A stretch of 64,000 bases of DNA from Nocardioides sp. (lineage in GTDB: Bacteria > Actinomycetota > Actinomycetes > Propionibacteriales > Nocardioidaceae): the NCBI RefSeq assembly GCF_025965415.1, contig NZ_JAOPWY010000085.1:1-64000 (forward strand). Direction: 5' to 3'. The notes under the pieces are model-generated. The model saw nothing but the letters and a program-made list of their open reading frames with translations. It was not told the origin of the DNA and searched no databases. Position numbers and translations under genes: made by a program. Shown here piece after piece: positions 18,238 to 28,315 of the stretch (the first letter of the stretch is position 1; every line of letters begins with the position of its first letter).

Positions 18238-18938
18238 GCTCGACCGGCACGACCCACCCTCGCCTGCCCGCGCGGCGCGGCGGCGGGTCCGGCACGTGGT
18301 GGAGCAAGGCCGTGCTCCGCGCGGTCGAGGAGGCCGCCTTCAGTGCCGCCGACCTCCGCGCCGGGCGATCCCTGGCGCGCGCCGGCGCGGTCGGCGCCAT
18401 CACCGTCGGCGACGGCAGCGCCGTGGCGGCCGTGACCCAGGGCCACGACGCCTTCACCGTGGAGGTGACCGTCCCGGTGCTCGGCGACTCCGACGCGGCG
18501 GCCTTCACCGAGCTCGTCGCCGCGGAGTCGGGCCGGATCGCCGCGCTGCTCGCCGGTCAGCTGCCGCACGCCCTGGTCGAGGCGGTGGAGGAGGCCGGCG
18601 TCGAGCTCCTGCCGTACGGCGGGGAGCTGGGCTCGGCCTGCTCGTGCGAGGCCTGGCTCGACCCCTGTCCCCATGCGCTGGCGGTGCTGACCCAGCTGGC
18701 GTGGTTGATCCAGGCGGACCCGTTCGTGCTCACGCACCTGCGCGGGCTCTCGCGCGACCGCGTGCTGCGTGACCTGCACTCGATCACCCGGCCCCACCCG
18801 CACGAGGTCCGCCGTGACGCCGAGGGCGACGAGGCCGGTGAGGGTCCCGACGAGGTGGACGACCTCGTCGTGGCCGAGGACGCGGCGGTGCGGGCGGCAC
18901 GCCTGCTGCAGCAGGAGAGCCCCTTCGAGGCGATGTGA
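18234..18938 (+). CDS. SWIM zinc-finger protein coupled to the SNF2 helicase
   Basis: A 234-residue protein with a SWIM zinc finger Cys136-x-Cys138-x6-Cys145-x-His147 (CSCEAWLDPCPH), followed by a helical region with HLRGLSRDRVLRDL and an acidic C-terminal tail. SWIM domains bind DNA or protein and occur next to or fused with SNF2 ATPases in bacteria and archaea. The ATG overlaps the SNF2 stop (ATGA), giving tight coupling. The N terminus carries TWWSKAVLRAVEE, often seen in this partner family. I infer that it recruits or regulates the SNF2 translocase; the cellular task is unknown. Confidence 0.85.
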
Positions 18939-18959
18939 CGGGAGCCGTGGCGATCCCGG

Positions 18960-19472
18960 TCAGCGGACCTCGGTGGTCGCCACCGGGCGCGCGCCGAGCT
19001 CCTCGTCGAGGCGGAGCAGGCCGGGGCCGTCGTCGTCGATCATCTTGACCCGGCCGACGATCTCCTTGACCGTCGCCTCCTCCTCGATCTGCTCGTCGAG
19101 GAACCAGTTGAGCAGCGGGCGCGAGTCGAGGTCGCCCTCGGCCTCGGCGAGGCGGTAGAGGTCGCGGATCGAGGCCGACACCTTCTCCTCGTGGGCCAGC
19201 GCGGCCTCGAAGGCGTCGAGCACCGAGGCCACCGGCGCGCTCGGCGCCGCGGTCGCCCCGATGCGCGGGTGGTTGTCGCGATCGGCGACGTGGTCGATGA
19301 ACTTGTTGGCGTGCACGATCTCCTCGTCGGCCTGGTGGCGCAGCCACGCCGCCATGCCGGGCAGGTCCATCAGCTCGAGCTCGATCGCGAGCTGGCGGTA
19401 GACCAGGGAGGCCTGCAGCTCGAGGGTGATCTGCGCGTTGAAGGCCTTTTCGAGGGTGTCGCTCAGCTTCAT
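18960..19472 (-). CDS. Ferritin (non-haem, FtnA/BfrB type)
   Basis: A 170-residue iron-storage four-helix protein, assembling into 24-mers that oxidise Fe(II) and store Fe(III). Ferroxidase ligands are visible: Glu in ITLELQASLVY, E-x-x-H in ADEEIVHANKF, Glu in AHEEKVSASI and the EQIEEEATVKEIV helix. The CSxxH haem-binding features of bacterioferritin are absent. A short C-terminal tail after helix E (LGARPVATTEVR) resembles mycobacterial BfrB. ATG 19472 begins MKLSDTLEKAFNAQ, the usual N terminus; no Shine-Dalgarno is obvious. The adjacent TetR gene ends 35 bases upstream, but there is no evidence they are functionally linked. Confidence 0.93.
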   Translation of the reverse strand: MKLSDTLEKAFNAQITLELQASLVYRQLAIELELMDLPGMAAWLRHQADEEIVHANKFIDHVADRDNHPRIGATAAPSAPVASVLDAFEAALAHEEKVSASIRDLYRLAEAEGDLDSRPLLNWFLDEQIEEEATVKEIVGRVKMIDDDGPGLLRLDEELGARPVATTEVR

Positions 19473-19506
19473 GCACGAGAGCGTAGCGGGGGAAGGAGCA
19501 GACGGA

Positions 19507-20058
19507 TCAGGCGAGTCCGAGGGCGCCGTGCGCCATGTCGCGGAGCACGTCGTGCATCTGCGGGTCGGGCAGCCGGCCGCTGTGCGGTGTGGAGTTGAGC
19601 AGGCCGAAGAGCACGTGCGCGCGGGTGCGGGAGGTCTCGGGGCTGAGCTCGGGGTGGAAGCGGCGTACCTGCGTGGCCCACACGTCGACGTAGGCGCGCT
19701 GCAGGGCACGGACCCGCTCGCGCGCGGCGTCGGGCAGGCTGCTCCAGTCGCGGTCCTGGACGACGATCAGCGCGCGGTGTTCGATGGCGAACTCGATGTG
19801 CCACTCGACCAGCGCCACGAGCGCCTGACGGGCACCGTCGGCGGTGGCGACGCGGCTGCGGCCCTCGGTGAGCAGGGTCTCGCTGATGGAGACCAGCATC
19901 TCGGCGAGCATCGCGTCCTTGGACTCGAAGTGCTTGTAGAGCGCCGGGCCGGAGATCCCGCAGGCGGAGCCGAGCTCGGCGACGGAGACGCCGTGGAACC
20001 CGCGCGCGGCGAAGAGCTCGGCCGCGATGTCGAGGATCTGCTGTCGCCGGGGGGTCAC
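19507..20058 (-). CDS. TetR-family repressor of the divergent acyl-CoA carboxylase operon
   Basis: A 183-residue TetR regulator: helix-turn-helix at about residues 5-50 (RRQQILDIAAELFAARGF, then SVAELGSACGISGPALYKHF), followed by a ligand-binding domain. It is transcribed away from the carboxylase operon with a 275-bp spacer. GTG 20058 starts VTPRRQQ, directly before helix 1; the longer frame to 20220 is not TetR-like. The probable promoter is leaderless: TAACCT lies seven bases before the GTG and forms half of an operator GGTTA-N8-TAACC, also found at the carboxylase start. The likely ligand is an acyl-CoA of leucine or fatty-acid breakdown (inference). Confidence 0.9.
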   Translation of the reverse strand: MTPRRQQILDIAAELFAARGFHGVSVAELGSACGISGPALYKHFESKDAMLAEMLVSISETLLTEGRSRVATADGARQALVALVEWHIEFAIEHRALIVVQDRDWSSLPDAARERVRALQRAYVDVWATQVRRFHPELSPETSRTRAHVLFGLLNSTPHSGRLPDPQMHDVLRDMAHGALGLA

Positions 20059-22035: not shown

Positions 22036-23970
22036 ATGAACACCCTCTTGATCGCCAACCGCGGCGAGATCGCCCTGCGGGTGATGCGCACCGCGCGCCG
22101 CCTGGGCTGGCAGACCGTCGCGATCCACACCGATCTCGACGCCGACGCACCGCACGTGCGGGCTGCCGACGCCGCCGTCCGGGTCGGCTCCTACCTCGAC
22201 ATCGACGCCGTCGTGGCCGCGGCGCGCGAGAGCGGTGCCGGACACGTCCACCCGGGCTACGGCTTCCTCTCCGAGCGCGCACCCTTCGCCCGGGCGCTGG
22301 CCGACGCCGGCATCACCCTGGTCGGTCCGACGGCCGAGGTGATGGACGCGATGGGCCGCAAGGACAGGGCGCGGGACATCGCGGTCGCGGCGGGCGTGCC
22401 CGTGGTGCCGTCGTACTCCCTCGATGACGACCCGACGACCTTCGCCTACCCGGTGCTGGTCAAGGCCGCGGCTGGCGGCGGCGGCAAGGGCATGCGCGTG
22501 GTGCGCTCGGCGGACGAGTTCGCCGAGGCGTGCGACGCGGCCCGGCGCGAGTCGCTCAAGGCCTTCGGTGACGACACGCTCCTGGTCGAGAAGTACGTCG
22601 AGTCCGGCCGCCACATCGAGGTGCAGGTCATGGGTGACGCGCACGGACGCGTGCTCCACTTCTTCGAGCGGGACTGCTCCACCCAGCGCCGGCACCAGAA
22701 GGTGCTCGAGGAGGCGCCCGCACCGACGATCGACGACGCTCAGCGCGCGGCCATCACGGCGTCGGCCGTCGCGTTGGCGCAGCAGTGCGGCTACACCGGC
22801 GCCGGCACGGTCGAGTTCCTTCTGGACAACGCGAGCGCCGAGTTCTACTTCCTCGAGATGAACACCCGGCTCCAGGTCGAGCACCCGGTGACCGAGGAGG
22901 TCGTCCGGGTCCGGTCCGCGTCGGGGAGCGAGCGCGTCGACCTCGTCGAGCTGCAGCTCCTCGTCGCGACCGGCGAGCCGCTGCCCTTCGACCAGGACGA
23001 CGTGACGCTCGAGGGCCACGCGATCGAGGCGCGCGTCTACGCCGAGGACTCCTTCCACGGCTTCCTCCCGCAGGCCGGGCGTACGTCGATCGTGCGGTGG
23101 CCTTCCGGCGACGGTGTTCGCGTCGACCACGCGCTCGAGCCGGACCAGGAGGTCAGCACCTCCTACGACCCGATGCTCGGCAAGGTCATCGCCCGGGGTG
23201 CCGACCGCGAGGCGGCGCGCGCCGGCCTCGTCGCGGCCCTCGACGAGACCGCGATCCTCGGCATCACGACCAACACCGGCTTCCTGCGCGCGCTGGCGGC
23301 CTCGGACGAGTTCCGCGACGCCGCCATCGACACGGCCTGGCTCGACGACCACGAGGTGCCGGCGCCCGACCCCGACCTGGCGCGGATCTTCGGCGCCTGG
23401 ACCGAGGTGCTGCTCGACACGATGCCCGGCTCGCGGCAGGGCGGCACCGGCCCGTGGCGGTCGGACGGCTGGCGGATGGGCGCCGACCCGGCTCCCGACA
23501 CCGTCGTGCTCGGCGACGACCTCGTGGTGGTCGACCGGCACCTCGGCCGCGTGACGCACGACGGGCGCGACCACGACGTACGCCTCGTGTCGGCGGCCGA
23601 CCACACCGTCCACCTCCTCGTCGACGGCCGCGCCGAGCACGCCGTGCTCGACGTGCAGCGGGACCTCGTCGAGGTCGTGCACCGCGGCCAGCGCTGGACG
23701 TGGGAGCGGCCCGACCCGTTCGGCGACCACGGCGTCGCGGCCGGTGACGGCACGCTGCTCGCGCCCATGCCCGGCACCGTCCTCGCGGTGAACGTCGAGC
23801 CCGCCCAGGTCGTGGCAGAGGGTGAGACGCTGGGCGTCATGGAGGCGATGAAGATGGAGCTCGCCCTCAAGGCGCCCTTCGCCGGCACGGTCACGACCGT
23901 CGGTGCGGCCGTCGGCGACCTCGTCACGCTCGGCGCGACGCTCTTCGTGGTGGAGGCGCTCGATGACTGA
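22036..23970 (+). CDS. Acyl-CoA carboxylase alpha subunit (biotin carboxylase plus biotin carrier)
   Basis: 644 residues. The ATP-grasp biotin carboxylase domain spans about 1-445 (IANRGEIALRVMRTARRLG at the N terminus, KAAAGGGGKGMRVV ATP loop, EMNTRLQVEHPVTE catalytic region), then a bridging region with DGRAEHAVLDV, and a C-terminal biotinyl domain with EAMKMEL, the biotin attachment site being Lys606. Biotin carboxylase charges biotin with bicarbonate using ATP and passes it to the beta subunit encoded just upstream. ATG 22036 has AAGGAGA four bases upstream. The stop overlaps the HMG-CoA lyase ATG by eight bases, indicating coupled translation. Substrate assignment (3-methylcrotonyl-CoA) rests mainly on context. 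Confidence 0.93.
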   Translation: MNTLLIANRGEIALRVMRTARRLGWQTVAIHTDLDADAPHVRAADAAVRVGSYLDIDAVVAAARESGAGHVHPGYGFLSERAPFARALADAGITLVGPTAEVMDAMGRKDRARDIAVAAGVPVVPSYSLDDDPTTFAYPVLVKAAAGGGGKGMRVVRSADEFAEACDAARRESLKAFGDDTLLVEKYVESGRHIEVQVMGDAHGRVLHFFERDCSTQRRHQKVLEEAPAPTIDDAQRAAITASAVALAQQCGYTGAGTVEFLLDNASAEFYFLEMNTRLQVEHPVTEEVVRVRSASGSERVDLVELQLLVATGEPLPFDQDDVTLEGHAIEARVYAEDSFHGFLPQAGRTSIVRWPSGDGVRVDHALEPDQEVSTSYDPMLGKVIARGADREAARAGLVAALDETAILGITTNTGFLRALAASDEFRDAAIDTAWLDDHEVPAPDPDLARIFGAWTEVLLDTMPGSRQGGTGPWRSDGWRMGADPAPDTVVLGDDLVVVDRHLGRVTHDGRDHDVRLVSAADHTVHLLVDGRAEHAVLDVQRDLVEVVHRGQRWTWERPDPFGDHGVAAGDGTLLAPMPGTVLAVNVEPAQVVAEGETLGVMEAMKMELALKAPFAGTVTTVGAAVGDLVTLGATLFVVEALDD

Positions 23971-24910
23971 GCTGCCCATGACCGTCCCCGCCGACGGACT
24001 GCCCGGCCGGGTCACGATCTATGAGGTCGGCCCCCGCGACGGCCTGCAGAACGAGCAGGCGATCGTCCCGGTCGAGGTCAAGGCCGAGTTCGTACGACGC
24101 CTCGTCGCCGCCGGGCTCCCGATCGTCGAGGCGACCAGCTTCGTGCACCCCAGGTGGGTGCCGCAGCTCGCCGACGCCGCGGAGCTGATGGCCGACCTCG
24201 GTGAGGCCGGCCGCCACCTGCCCGTGCTGGTGCCCAACGAGCGCGGCCTCGACCGGGCCCTGGAGCTCGGGCTCGAGCACATCGCGATCTTCGGCAGCGC
24301 GACGGAGACCTTCGCGACCAAGAACCTCAACCGCACCTTCGACGAGCAGTTCGCGATGTTCGAGCCCACCGTGGCGCGCGCCCGGGGGGCCGGGATGGAC
24401 GTGCGGGCCTACGTCTCGATGTGCTTCGGCGACCCGTGGGAGGGCGCCGTGCCGATCGAGCAGGTCGTCACCGCCGGCACCCGGCTGCTCGACCTCGGCG
24501 CGAGCCAGCTCAGCCTCGGCGACACCATCGGGGTCGCCACCGCGGGCCACGTGACCGCGCTGGTCGCCGCCTTCGCCGAGGCGGGCGTGGGCACCGACCG
24601 GCTCGCGATGCACTTCCACGACACCTACGGCCAGGCCCTGGCCAACACCTTCTCCGCGCTGCAGGCCGGCATCACCACCTTCGACGCCAGCGCAGGAGGT
24701 CTCGGCGGCTGCCCCTACGCGAAGTCGGCGACCGGCAACCTCGCCACCGAGGACCTCGTCTGGATGCTCACCGGGCTCGGGATCGAGCACGGTGTGGACC
24801 TCGGCGCCGTCGTCGCGACCAGCGTGTGGATGGCCGACGAGCTCGGCCGCCCGAGCCCGAGCGCCGTCGTACGAGCGCTCGGTGGCGGACTGGCACAATC
24901 GCCCCCATGA
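23963..24910 (+). CDS. Hydroxymethylglutaryl-CoA lyase
   Basis: A 315-residue DRE-TIM metallolyase that splits HMG-CoA into acetoacetate and acetyl-CoA, the last step of leucine breakdown. VTIYEVGPRDGLQNE is the N-terminal substrate/metal motif, FHDTYGQALAN supplies metal-binding His, and the signature GLGGCPYAKSATGN carries the catalytic Cys250 (Ser where Gly is usual after Lys). Length is normal. The ATG overlaps the carboxylase stop, and its own stop overlaps the first sulfotransferase ATG (ATGA), so the operon appears to continue. Isovaleryl-CoA dehydrogenase and methylglutaconyl-CoA hydratase genes are not in this cluster. Confidence 0.93.
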   Translation: MTELPMTVPADGLPGRVTIYEVGPRDGLQNEQAIVPVEVKAEFVRRLVAAGLPIVEATSFVHPRWVPQLADAAELMADLGEAGRHLPVLVPNERGLDRALELGLEHIAIFGSATETFATKNLNRTFDEQFAMFEPTVARARGAGMDVRAYVSMCFGDPWEGAVPIEQVVTAGTRLLDLGASQLSLGDTIGVATAGHVTALVAAFAEAGVGTDRLAMHFHDTYGQALANTFSALQAGITTFDASAGGLGGCPYAKSATGNLATEDLVWMLTGLGIEHGVDLGAVVATSVWMADELGRPSPSAVVRALGGGLAQSPP

Positions 24911-25995
24911 GCCGCGTCGTCCACCTCCACATCGGCGCTCCCAAGACCGGGACGACCTACCTCCAGGACCGGCTGCGGCTCAACACCGCCTCCCTGGCCC
25001 GGCACGGCGTGACCGTGCCCGCCACGCGCCCTGGACGCTCCGACATGTTCCACTTCCGCGCCGCGCTCGACCTGCTCGAGCAGGACTGGGGCGGGCCGCC
25101 CGGGCACGCCAGGGGCGCCTGGGACGCGATGGTGAGGCGGGTCAATCGCGGCGAGGACAACGTCGTGATCAGCCACGAGATCCTCGCCGGCGCCAAGCCC
25201 GACAAGATCGCCAAGGCGATGAACGACCTCGCCGGCAACGAGGTGCACATCGTCTACTCCGCGCGCGACCTCGCCCGCCAGATCCCCGCCGCGTGGCAGG
25301 AGTCGATCAAGCAGGGCCGCAAGTGGCAGTTCCGCCGCTTCATCGACCGCTACGAGTCCGGCAAGACCTTCTTCTTCCGCCAGGCGCTGGACCTGCCCGA
25401 GGTGCTGACCGCCTGGGGCGCCAAGATGCCGCCGGAGCGGATCCACGTGGTGACCGTCCCCCACGACCGCGGACCCGACGGCGACGAGCTGTGGCTGCGC
25501 TTCTGCCGGGCGTTCGGCATCGACCCCGCGTGGGCCCCGCTGGACTCCGAGCGCGACAACCGCTCGCTCGGGATCGCCGAGACGTCGCTGCTGCGCAAGC
25601 TCAACCGCCGCCTCGAGCTGGGCGTGTGGCGCGACCCCGTCTACGACGCCCTCATCCGGCAGCTCCTCGCCCAGGAGGTCCTGGTGGCGCGCGACGCCGT
25701 CCCCGTACGCCTGCCCCCCGACCGCTACGACTTCGCCGAGCAGCAGGCAGAGCTCTGGATCGAGTGGGTCAAGGGCAGCGGCGTCGACGTGATCGGCGAC
25801 CTCGAGGACCTGCGTCCGCGGCGCCCGGCCGAGGACGCGGAGTGGCGCAACCCCGACCGCGTCCGCGCCAAGCTGGAGCTCAGCGCCGCCCTGGACGCGC
25901 TCACGGTGATGACGCGCGAGGCCGCCAGCCACGCCTCCAGCGGCGCGGTGGGCGGCCGGCTGCGCGAGACCGCCCGCCGGCTGCGCGACCGTTGA
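24907..25995 (+). CDS. Sulfotransferase-like protein 1 (intact PAPS loop)
   Basis: A 362-residue protein starting MSRVVHLHIGAPKTGTTYLQ. GAPKTGTT (residues 10-17) is the 5'-phosphosulfate-binding loop of PAPS-dependent sulfotransferases, and VVISHEIL and VYSARDLARQIPAAWQ fit the strand containing the 3'-phosphate-binding Arg. C-terminal part ends with VDVIGDLEDLRP, shared with the two following genes. Related actinobacterial proteins sit in cell-wall polysaccharide clusters, so the acceptor may be a glycan, but none is indicated here. Its ATG overlaps the HMG-CoA lyase stop, and its stop overlaps the next start (TTGA). Probably cytosolic. Confidence 0.82.
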   Translation: MSRVVHLHIGAPKTGTTYLQDRLRLNTASLARHGVTVPATRPGRSDMFHFRAALDLLEQDWGGPPGHARGAWDAMVRRVNRGEDNVVISHEILAGAKPDKIAKAMNDLAGNEVHIVYSARDLARQIPAAWQESIKQGRKWQFRRFIDRYESGKTFFFRQALDLPEVLTAWGAKMPPERIHVVTVPHDRGPDGDELWLRFCRAFGIDPAWAPLDSERDNRSLGIAETSLLRKLNRRLELGVWRDPVYDALIRQLLAQEVLVARDAVPVRLPPDRYDFAEQQAELWIEWVKGSGVDVIGDLEDLRPRRPAEDAEWRNPDRVRAKLELSAALDALTVMTREAASHASSGAVGGRLRETARRLRDR

Positions 25996-27116
25996 CCGGC
26001 GCCTCCGCGTCCGACCCGTCCGGCCGCGCCCACAGCTGGATCGCGCACCTGCGCGAGGGGGGTACGACGCCCTGGCTGGCGTGGTCCCACCACGGTGCGG
26101 CCGCGGGCGGCCCGCTCCCCGGTGCCCAGCAGCTCGAGCTGCTGCGCCGGATCAACCTCGCTGCCCCGGCCGATCGAGCCCTCGCTGACCGCGTGCTGGC
26201 CGCCCCGGCCGCGGGCCGCGGCAAGGCCGACCTGCCGCTCCTCGGGCTCGCCCCCTCCGGCTTCGGTCCCCGCCCGGTCGACCCGGCGACCGTCAGCGCC
26301 CACGAGCTGCTGCGCGTCGCCTCGGTCCTGCTCGCCGACGACCTCGTCGGCCTGGGCGCCGACCCGGTCCGCGCGACGTGGCCCCGCCCGTGGCGACGGA
26401 GGTTCCGGCTGGTGGGCGACCCCGTGCTGGTCGGCGCCCTCCGCGAGGACCTGCTCGCCCGCGGGCGCCCCGAGGGCGGGCCGCGCACGTTCGTCGTCGC
26501 CGTCGGCGCGCCGCTCGACGACCTGCTCGCGCACACCTGGACCCAGCGCTGCTTCGAGACCGGCACCAAGCCGTGGGCCGAGTGGCTGCGGTTCTGGCGC
26601 GAGCGCGACCAGCTGCCCGCCAGGGCCGACCTCCTCGCCTCCGTACGCCGCTGGAACGCCCGCCGTCCCTTCGTCCGGATCGTGACCGACCTCGACCAGC
26701 TGCCCCGGCAGGTCGGCGTACGACGCCTGCCGGAGGTCCGCGTGCCTGGCGCCGACCAGGCCGAGCTGGCCCGCCGGGTGGCCGCGGTCGTGGGCCTCAG
26801 GGTCCCCGCCGACCAGCGCCCCGGCCTGATGCGGACGCTCCAGCGACGGATGCCCGGCAGCGGCGCCGCGCCCATCGGCGTACCTGCCCGCGAACGGGAG
26901 TGGGTCGCCGCCTCGGCCGAGCGGATGTCCCGGAGCCTGACGCGCGCTGGCTACTCTGTCGTCGGCGACCTCGCCGATCTCGCGCCGCGCGCCGCGTCGG
27001 CCGCGACCGGCACCGGCGGCGCCGACGACCGGCAGGTGCTGGACCTGGCGATCCGGATGGTGGTCGACCCGAGCTGGCGGAGCCGGCGACCGAGTGAGGG
27101 GGAGGGGCAGCAGTGA
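25992..27116 (+). CDS. Diverged sulfotransferase paralogue lacking the PAPS loop
   Basis: 374 residues from a TTG at 25992 that overlaps the preceding stop. The N-terminal third (REGGTTPWLAWSHHG, PLPGAQQLELLRRIN) is unlike its neighbours and has no P-loop-like GxPKTGT. The rest can be aligned by eye to the flanking sulfotransferases: LAHTWTQRCFETG matches IPAAWQESIKQG and IPAEWQENVKHR, and YSVVGDLADLAP matches VDVIGDLEDLRP and HDVAGSLDDL. I infer a paralogue that lost sulfonate-donor binding and now serves as a partner or scaffold. The low-frequency TTG start implies lower, coupled translation. Function unknown; not a frameshifted pseudogene, as the frame is intact and compositionally normal. 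Confidence 0.75.
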   Translation: MTGASASDPSGRAHSWIAHLREGGTTPWLAWSHHGAAAGGPLPGAQQLELLRRINLAAPADRALADRVLAAPAAGRGKADLPLLGLAPSGFGPRPVDPATVSAHELLRVASVLLADDLVGLGADPVRATWPRPWRRRFRLVGDPVLVGALREDLLARGRPEGGPRTFVVAVGAPLDDLLAHTWTQRCFETGTKPWAEWLRFWRERDQLPARADLLASVRRWNARRPFVRIVTDLDQLPRQVGVRRLPEVRVPGADQAELARRVAAVVGLRVPADQRPGLMRTLQRRMPGSGAAPIGVPAREREWVAASAERMSRSLTRAGYSVVGDLADLAPRAASAATGTGGADDRQVLDLAIRMVVDPSWRSRRPSEGEGQQ

Positions 27117-28315
27117 GCAAGCGAGTGCTGCTGCACGTCGGCTGCCCCAAGACCGGCACGTCGTACCTCCAGGACGTGCTGTTCCGCAACCAGGAGATCC
27201 TCCGCGAGCACGACATCCTCTATCCGGCCGACCGCTTCGACGCCCACTTCCTGGCGGCCCTCGACCTCATGACGCTGCCGTGGGGAGGCCTGGAGACCGA
27301 GGCGGTCGGCGCGTGGGACCGGCTGGCCGAGCAGGTCCGCGAGTGGCACGGCACCGCGATCATCAGCCACGAGATCTTCGCCCGCGCCACGCCCACCCAG
27401 GTCGAGCGCGCCCTCGCCTCGCTCGGTGACGCGGAGGTCCACCTCGTCCTTTCGGTGCGCGACCTGGTGCGTCAGATCCCGGCCGAGTGGCAGGAGAACG
27501 TCAAGCACCGCAGCCACATCACCTATGCCAGGTTCCTGCAGGCCGTCCGCGACCCCGCGCGCGAGTCGAAGATCGGATCGTGGTTCTGGGCGGTCCAGGA
27601 GATCCCCGACATCCTCGATCGCTGGGGCGCCTCCCTGCCGGCCGACCGCGTCCACCTCGTCACGGTGCCGCCCTCGGGCTCCGACCGGGGCGAGCTGTGG
27701 CGCCGCTTCTCGCGCACCTTCGGCCTCGACGACCTGCCGCTCGACCTCACCGCCGAGCGGGAGAACCCGTCCCTCGGCGTGCCCGAGACCTCCCTGCTGC
27801 GCACCATCAACCAGCGGGTGACCTCGATCCTGGCACCGCCCGACTACCGTCCGCTGGTGCGCGAGCTGCTCGCCCACCAGACCCTGTCGCGCGGCGTCGC
27901 CTCGGCGCGCCTCGGGCTGGCGCCGGACGACCACGCCTGGGCGCAGGGCCTGTCCCGCAGCTGGGTGAGGCTGCTCGCGGAGCGCGGCCACGACGTCGCC
28001 GGCTCGCTCGACGACCTGCTCGGTCCCGACCTCGGCCCCTTCGCCGACCCCGACACCGCGAGCGCCGAGGAGCTGCTGCCGCCGGCGCTCGATGCGATCT
28101 CCGCCCTGCTCGTGGAGGCCGCCCGGCTGCGCGCCGTGGAGGAGCGGCTCCACGAGGAGCTCCGGGAGGCGCACCAGGAGCGCGACCGCGCGCGGCTGAC
28201 ACCGTCGTACAGGATCCGCCGCAAGGTGGTCACCAGCCTGGAGGACAGCGCCGTGGGGCGCGGCACGCTGGACACCTATCGTCGGCTCAAGGGCAGGGGC
28301 AAGGGCCCCGCCTGA
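27113..28315 (+). CDS. Sulfotransferase-like protein 2 with C-terminal coiled coil
   Basis: A 400-residue paralogue of the gene at 24907. GCPKTGTSYLQ (residues 10-20) is the PAPS-binding loop, LVLSVRDLVRQIPAEWQ the second nucleotide-binding segment, and HDVAGSLDDL the shared C-terminal motif. After it comes a heptad-like helix RLRAVEERLHEELREAHQER and a basic tail (LTPSYRIRRKVV), a feature common in actinobacterial glycan-modifying enzymes that assemble on membrane complexes. GTG 27113 overlaps the upstream stop by four bases (GTGA). Last gene of the apparent operon; 125 bases follow before the next gene. The acceptor is unknown. Confidence 0.82.
   Translation: MSKRVLLHVGCPKTGTSYLQDVLFRNQEILREHDILYPADRFDAHFLAALDLMTLPWGGLETEAVGAWDRLAEQVREWHGTAIISHEIFARATPTQVERALASLGDAEVHLVLSVRDLVRQIPAEWQENVKHRSHITYARFLQAVRDPARESKIGSWFWAVQEIPDILDRWGASLPADRVHLVTVPPSGSDRGELWRRFSRTFGLDDLPLDLTAERENPSLGVPETSLLRTINQRVTSILAPPDYRPLVRELLAHQTLSRGVASARLGLAPDDHAWAQGLSRSWVRLLAERGHDVAGSLDDLLGPDLGPFADPDTASAEELLPPALDAISALLVEAARLRAVEERLHEELREAHQERDRARLTPSYRIRRKVVTSLEDSAVGRGTLDTYRRLKGRGKGPA

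Follow-up and report, generated by a model that had tools for sequence, protein, structure and literature searches.

What does a gene that has lost the donor-binding loop of its family do between two neighbours that have kept it? The question is raised by a 64,000-nucleotide stretch of DNA from Nocardioides sp. (contig NZ_JAOPWY010000085.1 of assembly GCF_025965415.1, positions 1 to 64,000), referred to here as the window. Three tandem genes lie on its forward strand: A (24907..25995, 362 amino acids, ATG start), which encodes a sulfotransferase-like protein; M (25992..27116, 374 amino acids, TTG start at 25992), which appears to encode a non-catalytic sulfotransferase paralogue; and C (27113..28315, 400 amino acids, GTG start), which encodes a protein predicted to have the sulfotransferase fold, followed by a long helical tail at the C terminus. 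An earlier note, made from the DNA letters, delimited the three genes and their frames correctly and proposed that their products form an obligate complex, in which a dead M scaffolds or regulates two active sulfotransferases. The present analysis points instead to M as a prozyme-like, stoichiometric and non-catalytic partner of C, a reading based on comparative sequence evidence to which we assign a probability of about 0.55.

Relationship of M to A and C

The window M protein matches no family in Pfam or NCBIfam, and a Pfam scan of M with 60 relatives returns only scattered single-member matches, the best at E 7.6e-5 in 1 of the 61. The named relatives of M, 22 in number, are all Nocardioides, with N. 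alpinus and N. astragali closest. Pairwise BLASTP of M against A and C is marginal by itself (E 5e-4 and 9e-4). In profile-profile comparison, M (61 members) and C give a colinear alignment with an hhalign score of 131.8 and a probability of 98.9 over 217 columns, spanning M 147-360 and C 94-336 (profile positions); M and A give one with a score of 122.1 over 208 columns. As controls, reversal of the profiles brings the scores down to 16.6 and 16.9, column shuffling (20 shuffles for each profile) gives at most 23.2, and five unrelated neighbour families compared with the second part of M reach at most 18.6. The kinship that the earlier note had read from two short resemblances, LAHTWTQRC with IPAAWQESI and a shared GDL-x-DL, is borne out by these scores, and both resemblances fall within the one colinear alignment. 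A search with the M profile through 198 genomes of the family, which we take to be the Nocardioidaceae, recovers M at 251-491 bits; A/C-type genes follow only below a gap, at no more than 105 bits, and among the rows listed they match within profile positions ~115-373. The colinear alignment and this search together identify the C-terminal part of M as a sulfotransferase relative, residues 147-360 (26430..27071) being homologous in the profile alignment to A and C past their PAPS-loop third (PAPS, 3'-phosphoadenosine 5'-phosphosulfate).

The loop itself is where M departs from its neighbours. As the note had stated, a GxPKTGT-type sequence is present in both outer genes and M has none; it lies at residues 10-16 of A (GAPKTGT, the 5'-phosphosulfate loop, 24934..24954) and of C (GCPKTGT, 27140..27160). 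Neither GxPK nor [PR]K[ST]GT occurs anywhere in the 96 distinct M proteins, which comprise the window and 95 others after duplicate removal. Chance matches to GxPR do occur, mostly near residue 162 in the shared half, and that of locus L103 (GRPRRGT) lies near the C terminus. Only 8 of 61 M proteins keep R at the column of the 3'-phosphate arginine, and a G-x-P of M lies opposite the SHE of A and C, in a pairing made by predicted secondary structure only and with a low-confidence M model. From these features M appears to be a non-catalytic paralogue of the A/C family that has lost the PAPS loop, as the note had proposed. It is also a real gene, conserved beside active-looking sulfotransferases.

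A and C are 40% identical to each other over 347 residues in pairwise comparison. P-K-T-G-T is invariant in 44 of 44 C proteins; among 36 A proteins the P, G15 and T16 are found in all, the K in 35 and T14 in 34. An R-D motif that follows the next core strand is also invariant in A and C. Eight residues on, where the spacing of the 3'-phosphate-binding Arg and Ser of PAPS sulfotransferases would place the Ser, the window A and C have Ala. In a Pfam scan neither window protein matches a sulfotransferase model, Sulfotransfer_3 (PF13469) included, at E ≤ 1, and Sulfotransfer_3 matches among their relatives are weak (7 of 36 for A, best E 0.01; 3 of 44 for C, best E 0.057). An NCBIfam scan of the 36 A relatives returns no sulfotransferase family, and sequence-profile searches of the PDB give no credible match for C (best E 0.0037, stem_mimetic_01), M (0.055) or A (0.012).

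A structure model of C, for which 27 A and C sequences were aligned, has a mean predicted local distance difference test score (pLDDT) of 72.5. The first four Foldseek matches to this model are to NDST1, 3-O-sulfotransferase and tyrosylprotein sulfotransferase; a single match reaches E ≤ 0.001, and P-loop kinases and GTPases are also among the first 50. With VIA-align, which tells these groups apart, the best match is the Alicyclobacillus sulfotransferase 3rnl (Z 14.5, root-mean-square deviation 4.4 over 231 residues), followed by NDST1 (Z 13.8) and 3-OST-3 (Z 13.5). Sulfotransferases make up 49 of the best 50 entries listed, the other being an adenylate kinase at Z 8.7. The invariant PKTGT loop and these matches assign C, at the level of a model, to the sulfotransferase fold, and A, being 40% identical to C, shares that assignment. 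The genome also encodes an adenosine 5'-phosphosulfate kinase.

Two side observations concern C and its wider family. The C tail (28064-28312), which A does not have, is predicted to be helical at low confidence and carries a conserved YRR-x-RGR near its end; it may be a membrane- or partner-binding element. On another contig of the same genome (C163) there are two further divergent sulfotransferase relatives (L132:12330-13649 and 18521-19555). Their neighbours, which by eye we take to be a GT2-like glycosyltransferase and a LicD-like gene, are compatible with a glycan acceptor and do not demonstrate one.

In M, residues 1-136 (25992..26399) occupy the place that in A and C belongs to the PAPS loop and its flanking strand 1 and helix 1. 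This module carries conserved GG-TT-P-W, PGAQQLELLRR and GRG motifs; G23, the GRG at 75-77 and G142 are invariant in 61 of 61 members, and W28 is found in 60 of 61. The note had called the N terminus of M unrelated. Against the loop region of A and C the module scores only 11.2 and 12.0, and the idea of a decayed PAPS loop is not supported. The module is not clearly unrelated, since a weak resemblance links its residues 11-60 to the W-helix region of M itself (score 33.1 at a probability of 51.6, with controls of at most 19.2 in 250 shuffles, 22.2 in 60 shuffles and 17.9 in five unrelated families). The resemblance hints at a possible partial internal duplication of the W-helix segment. Compared with the C-terminal part of A and C, the module scores 25.8 and 22.3 (60-shuffle maxima 18.0 and 17.1), which is no more than suggestive of a copy of that part.

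C in loci with and without M

Full or nearly full M genes (rows above 250 bits) are present in 87 of the 198 family genomes, the window genome included, and in 7 of 26 genus codes, with nine candidates scored per genome. Outside the family, no full-length copy was found in 293 order genomes, some of which are family members, or in 396 phylum genomes, searches that scored 6 and 4 candidates, respectively, in each genome and may have missed some. A search of plasmids gave no match to M.

Each of the 96 distinct M loci has C directly 3' of M, at a distance of no more than 100 bases, and in 71 of them the spacing is exactly -4; in one locus (L107) C is split into two frames. An A/C-type gene is found 5' of M on the same strand in 81 loci, 50 of these at -4, and is missing there from the other 15, one of which (L086) is at a contig edge and three of which (L065, L070 and L076) have a divergent A/C-type gene on the other strand. 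Of the automatically chosen starts, those of L039 and L062 are wrong, and the place chosen in L061 holds no start codon.

Among the matches listed, eight genomes keep A and C without a full M, which is absent from seven and reduced in one. Three further genomes (G035, G062 and G095), which have a C gene, no full M and contig edges, were kept out of this count. A adjoins C in six of the eight, and the other two loci hold an insert (L126) and a shortened M-like frame (L121). No full M was found elsewhere in the eight genomes, where all of the 20 matches listed cover the shared half only, in a search that also missed the short frame and that a reduced M could escape. In the C tree, which has 83 rows, M-positive and M-negative C genes are interspersed, and the M label changes five times, once at the outgroup. 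M has therefore been lost or reduced in about four independent events. The tree retains ~1 in 4 of L003-L020, leaves out L036-L057 and omits C genes scoring ≤ 500, including the split C of L107.

The two exceptional loci deserve description in their own right. The M-like frame in genome G028 (L121:7182-7841, minus strand, ~219 codons) lies between A and C and keeps an ATGA overlap with A as well as AQLEAARR and GRG motifs; judged by these features it would be M in the course of reduction. In genome G152 (L126:5998-7972), an AurF-type N-oxygenase (E 9e-82) and an opposite-strand family-2 glycosyltransferase stand in place of M, and the C protein of this locus has lost both the loop glycine and the SHE histidine.

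The divergence of C, corrected by up to five neighbouring genes present per locus (only one for L124), was compared across 58 M-bearing rows; the test that took in A and M as well used 43 rows with all three genes. C divergence is raised in 8 of 8 loci in which M is lost or reduced, with z from 0.9 to 5.0 and a mean of 2.19, and the smallest shift is that of the genome with the reduced M. When loss clades are set against their M-bearing relatives, C is faster in four of four, by 3.0, 5.3, 0.9 and 0.7. Loss of A leaves no such mark: over 13 A-loss loci (L027 and L086 being omitted for short flank and contig edge), the mean z is -0.23 for C and 0.0 for M.

A similar pattern is seen in individual residues. 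Of 79 C residues that are invariant in the 44 M-associated C proteins, the eight M-less proteins alter 1-11 (median 2.5), seven of them at least two, while leave-one-out comparison among the 44 gives a median of 0 changes, with at least two in 5 of 44. Thirty further M-associated C proteins, mostly close relatives of the 44, show 0-2 changes, and the two C genes of the outgroup, which lack both M and A, show 4 and 5. Relaxed constraint after the loss of a partner would give this pattern, which could also be due in part to lineage effects. Both the rates and the altered residues point to a link of M with C, not with A.

On this basis, we propose that M descends from a sulfotransferase of the A/C family whose N-terminal third, PAPS loop included, has been lost, and that it carries a different, strongly conserved module at its N terminus. 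M and C would be translated together through stop-start coupling, the overlap being present in the DNA and its effect presumed. M would then bind C via the shared C-terminal half and raise the folding or stability, the activity or the acceptor selectivity of C, which would hold the PAPS; this last step is suggested by the lost loop and by the rates. Physical contact between M and C, activation and sulfation activity are things that we infer. A would be a related sulfotransferase at the same locus, probably independent, secondary or redundant.

Several observations weigh against a partnership of M and C. C persists where M is gone, so M is not strictly obligate. There are only about four independent losses, and two of the four loss-clade contrasts are small. 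In genus code g5, C is also fast where M is present (mean z 1.1-1.3), so that the signal there is partly one of lineage; the divergence of A rises slightly as well where M is lost (mean z 0.89); and some M-associated C proteins alter invariant residues too, up to 6 in the leave-one-out comparison. An AlphaFold2 model of M from 23 close sequences (pLDDT 41.6) was too poor to be used for a fold search.

Gene order is a further such point. In the window, as the note had observed, each of the three start codons shares four bases with the end of the gene before it: TTGA between A and M (25992..25995), GTGA between M and C (27113..27116) and ATGA (24907..24910) between A and the gene 5' of it (stop 24908-24910). 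That gene encodes an HMG-CoA lyase (23966-24910; HMGL-like, E 9.5e-43), and since A thus overlaps a leucine-degradation gene, four-base overlaps alone are no sign of a complex, towards which the note had counted them. The overlap of the lyase gene with A is at -4 in 28 of 75 measured loci. Order is also conserved across the family for unrelated neighbours, as acyl-CoA carboxylase carboxyltransferase (presumably, the name having been assigned by eye), HMG-CoA lyase, A, M, C, an opposite-strand EcsC-family gene and leucyl/phenylalanyl-tRNA transferase. A function shared by these neighbours is not known, so that adjacency by itself is weak evidence.

The position of the sulfotransferase operon directly 3' of a leucine-degradation operon is itself a family-wide feature. 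In a genome from a different class of the same phylum (L135:235-3259), an HMG-CoA lyase gene is directly followed by two tandem A-type sulfotransferases that are 55% identical to A. Either the link between lyase and sulfotransferase predates the family, or this contig, from a 960-contig assembly, is a contaminant.

Alternative roles for M

The alternative that survives best is that M has an unrelated job, such as the binding of a glycan or another ligand, and owes its place in the operon solely to common ancestry and vertical transmission. The distinct N-terminal module, with G23, GRG and G142 invariant in every member, would fit such a job, and the synteny that extends to unrelated neighbours would explain the arrangement. 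Against it, none of the 96 M loci lacks C, and C changes faster where M is lost. We consider this reading unlikely.

Less probable still is the note's own model, in which the three products form an obligate complex and M serves as a scaffold for two active sulfotransferases. The genes are adjacent, 81 of the 96 M loci have an A/C-type gene 5' of M, and 50 of these show the -4 overlap. Against this stand the 15 loci with no upstream A/C-type gene, the unchanged rates of C and M in the 13 of them that could be tested, and the eight genomes in which A and C persist with M absent or reduced. The rates point to a tie of M with C, and the note's proposal is not supported in its obligate three-member form.

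We give little credence to the view that M is a functionless, slowly decaying remnant, kept for the translational coupling of C. Relative to four relatives, M has a ratio of nonsynonymous to synonymous substitution rates (dN/dS) of 0.26-0.39, A of 0.25-0.30 and C of 0.13-0.23, so M is less constrained than C; the shortened copy in L121 and the four or so losses also look like decay. The same dN/dS, however, shows that M is a real gene under clear purifying selection, and its motifs are invariant over 61 diverse members from seven genus codes. That M is an active transferase binding PAPS by a new N-terminal loop is hardly credible, since the GGTT-P-W motif, well conserved as it is (G23 in 61 of 61, W28 in 60 of 61), contains no lysine, the N terminus has no profile match to the A/C loop region (11.2 and 12.0) and the arginine column is not conserved.

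A more specific form of the M-C partnership can be put forward tentatively, and we regard it as possible at well below even odds. M and C would constitute the first bacterial heteromeric sulfotransferase, in which a live C depends on a dead M; M would have given up its PAPS part, gained a new N-terminal module derived partly from a duplicated acceptor-side segment, and come to supply activation or acceptor recognition. If the partnership is real, it would add a bacterial case with the sulfotransferase fold, and the natural losses of M within one family would make it easy to measure how a pseudoenzyme serves its partner. A sulfated product of these actinobacteria, so far unstudied, would also be indicated.

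Comparison with known systems

Among known systems, the solved PAPS sulfotransferases (3rnl, human NDST1 and the 3-O-sulfotransferases) are the structural reference for C. They share with it the fold over residues 1-306 (Z 13-14.5), the GxPKTGT-type loop and the R-D motif. C differs in being only ~10-13% identical to them, in its extra C-terminal tail and in having a dead paralogue in its operon.

For M, the nearest comparisons are with members of the sulfotransferase family that have been reported as inactive. Human SULT4A1, an orphan cytosolic sulfotransferase, is likewise a relative that has long been reported inactive. It is not known to have lost the loop or to be the constant neighbour of an active paralogue, as M is. 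A claim of activity for SULT4A1 appears in the title of PMC8803991. With reference to Ribeiro et al. 2019, PMC9539457 recognises a class of pseudosulfotransferases; as catalytically dead sulfotransferase homologues they resemble M, which differs in sitting as an operon partner in a bacterium. Sulfotransferases are also listed among enzymes with non-catalytic roles in PMC5106787. Among the papers listed in searches of the open-access literature, including that on actinobacterial and Nocardioides sulfotransferases, no pseudoenzyme partner of a bacterial sulfotransferase was found. Pseudoenzyme partners are already known, and by the measure of those searches the bacterial sulfotransferase case appears to be new.

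The closest parallel to the action that we propose for M is provided by the prozymes of trypanosomatids, dead paralogues of deoxyhypusine synthase and of S-adenosylmethionine decarboxylase. According to PMC3663545, complex formation and activation have been measured for these pairs, activation being 3000-fold in the case of deoxyhypusine synthase. Those enzymes are eukaryotic and unrelated to sulfotransferases, and their complexes are measured, whereas the M-C pair is proposed from sequence; M has also replaced a third of its fold. What the systems have in common is that a dead and an active paralogue are kept together in evolution, with the same action proposed for the dead one.

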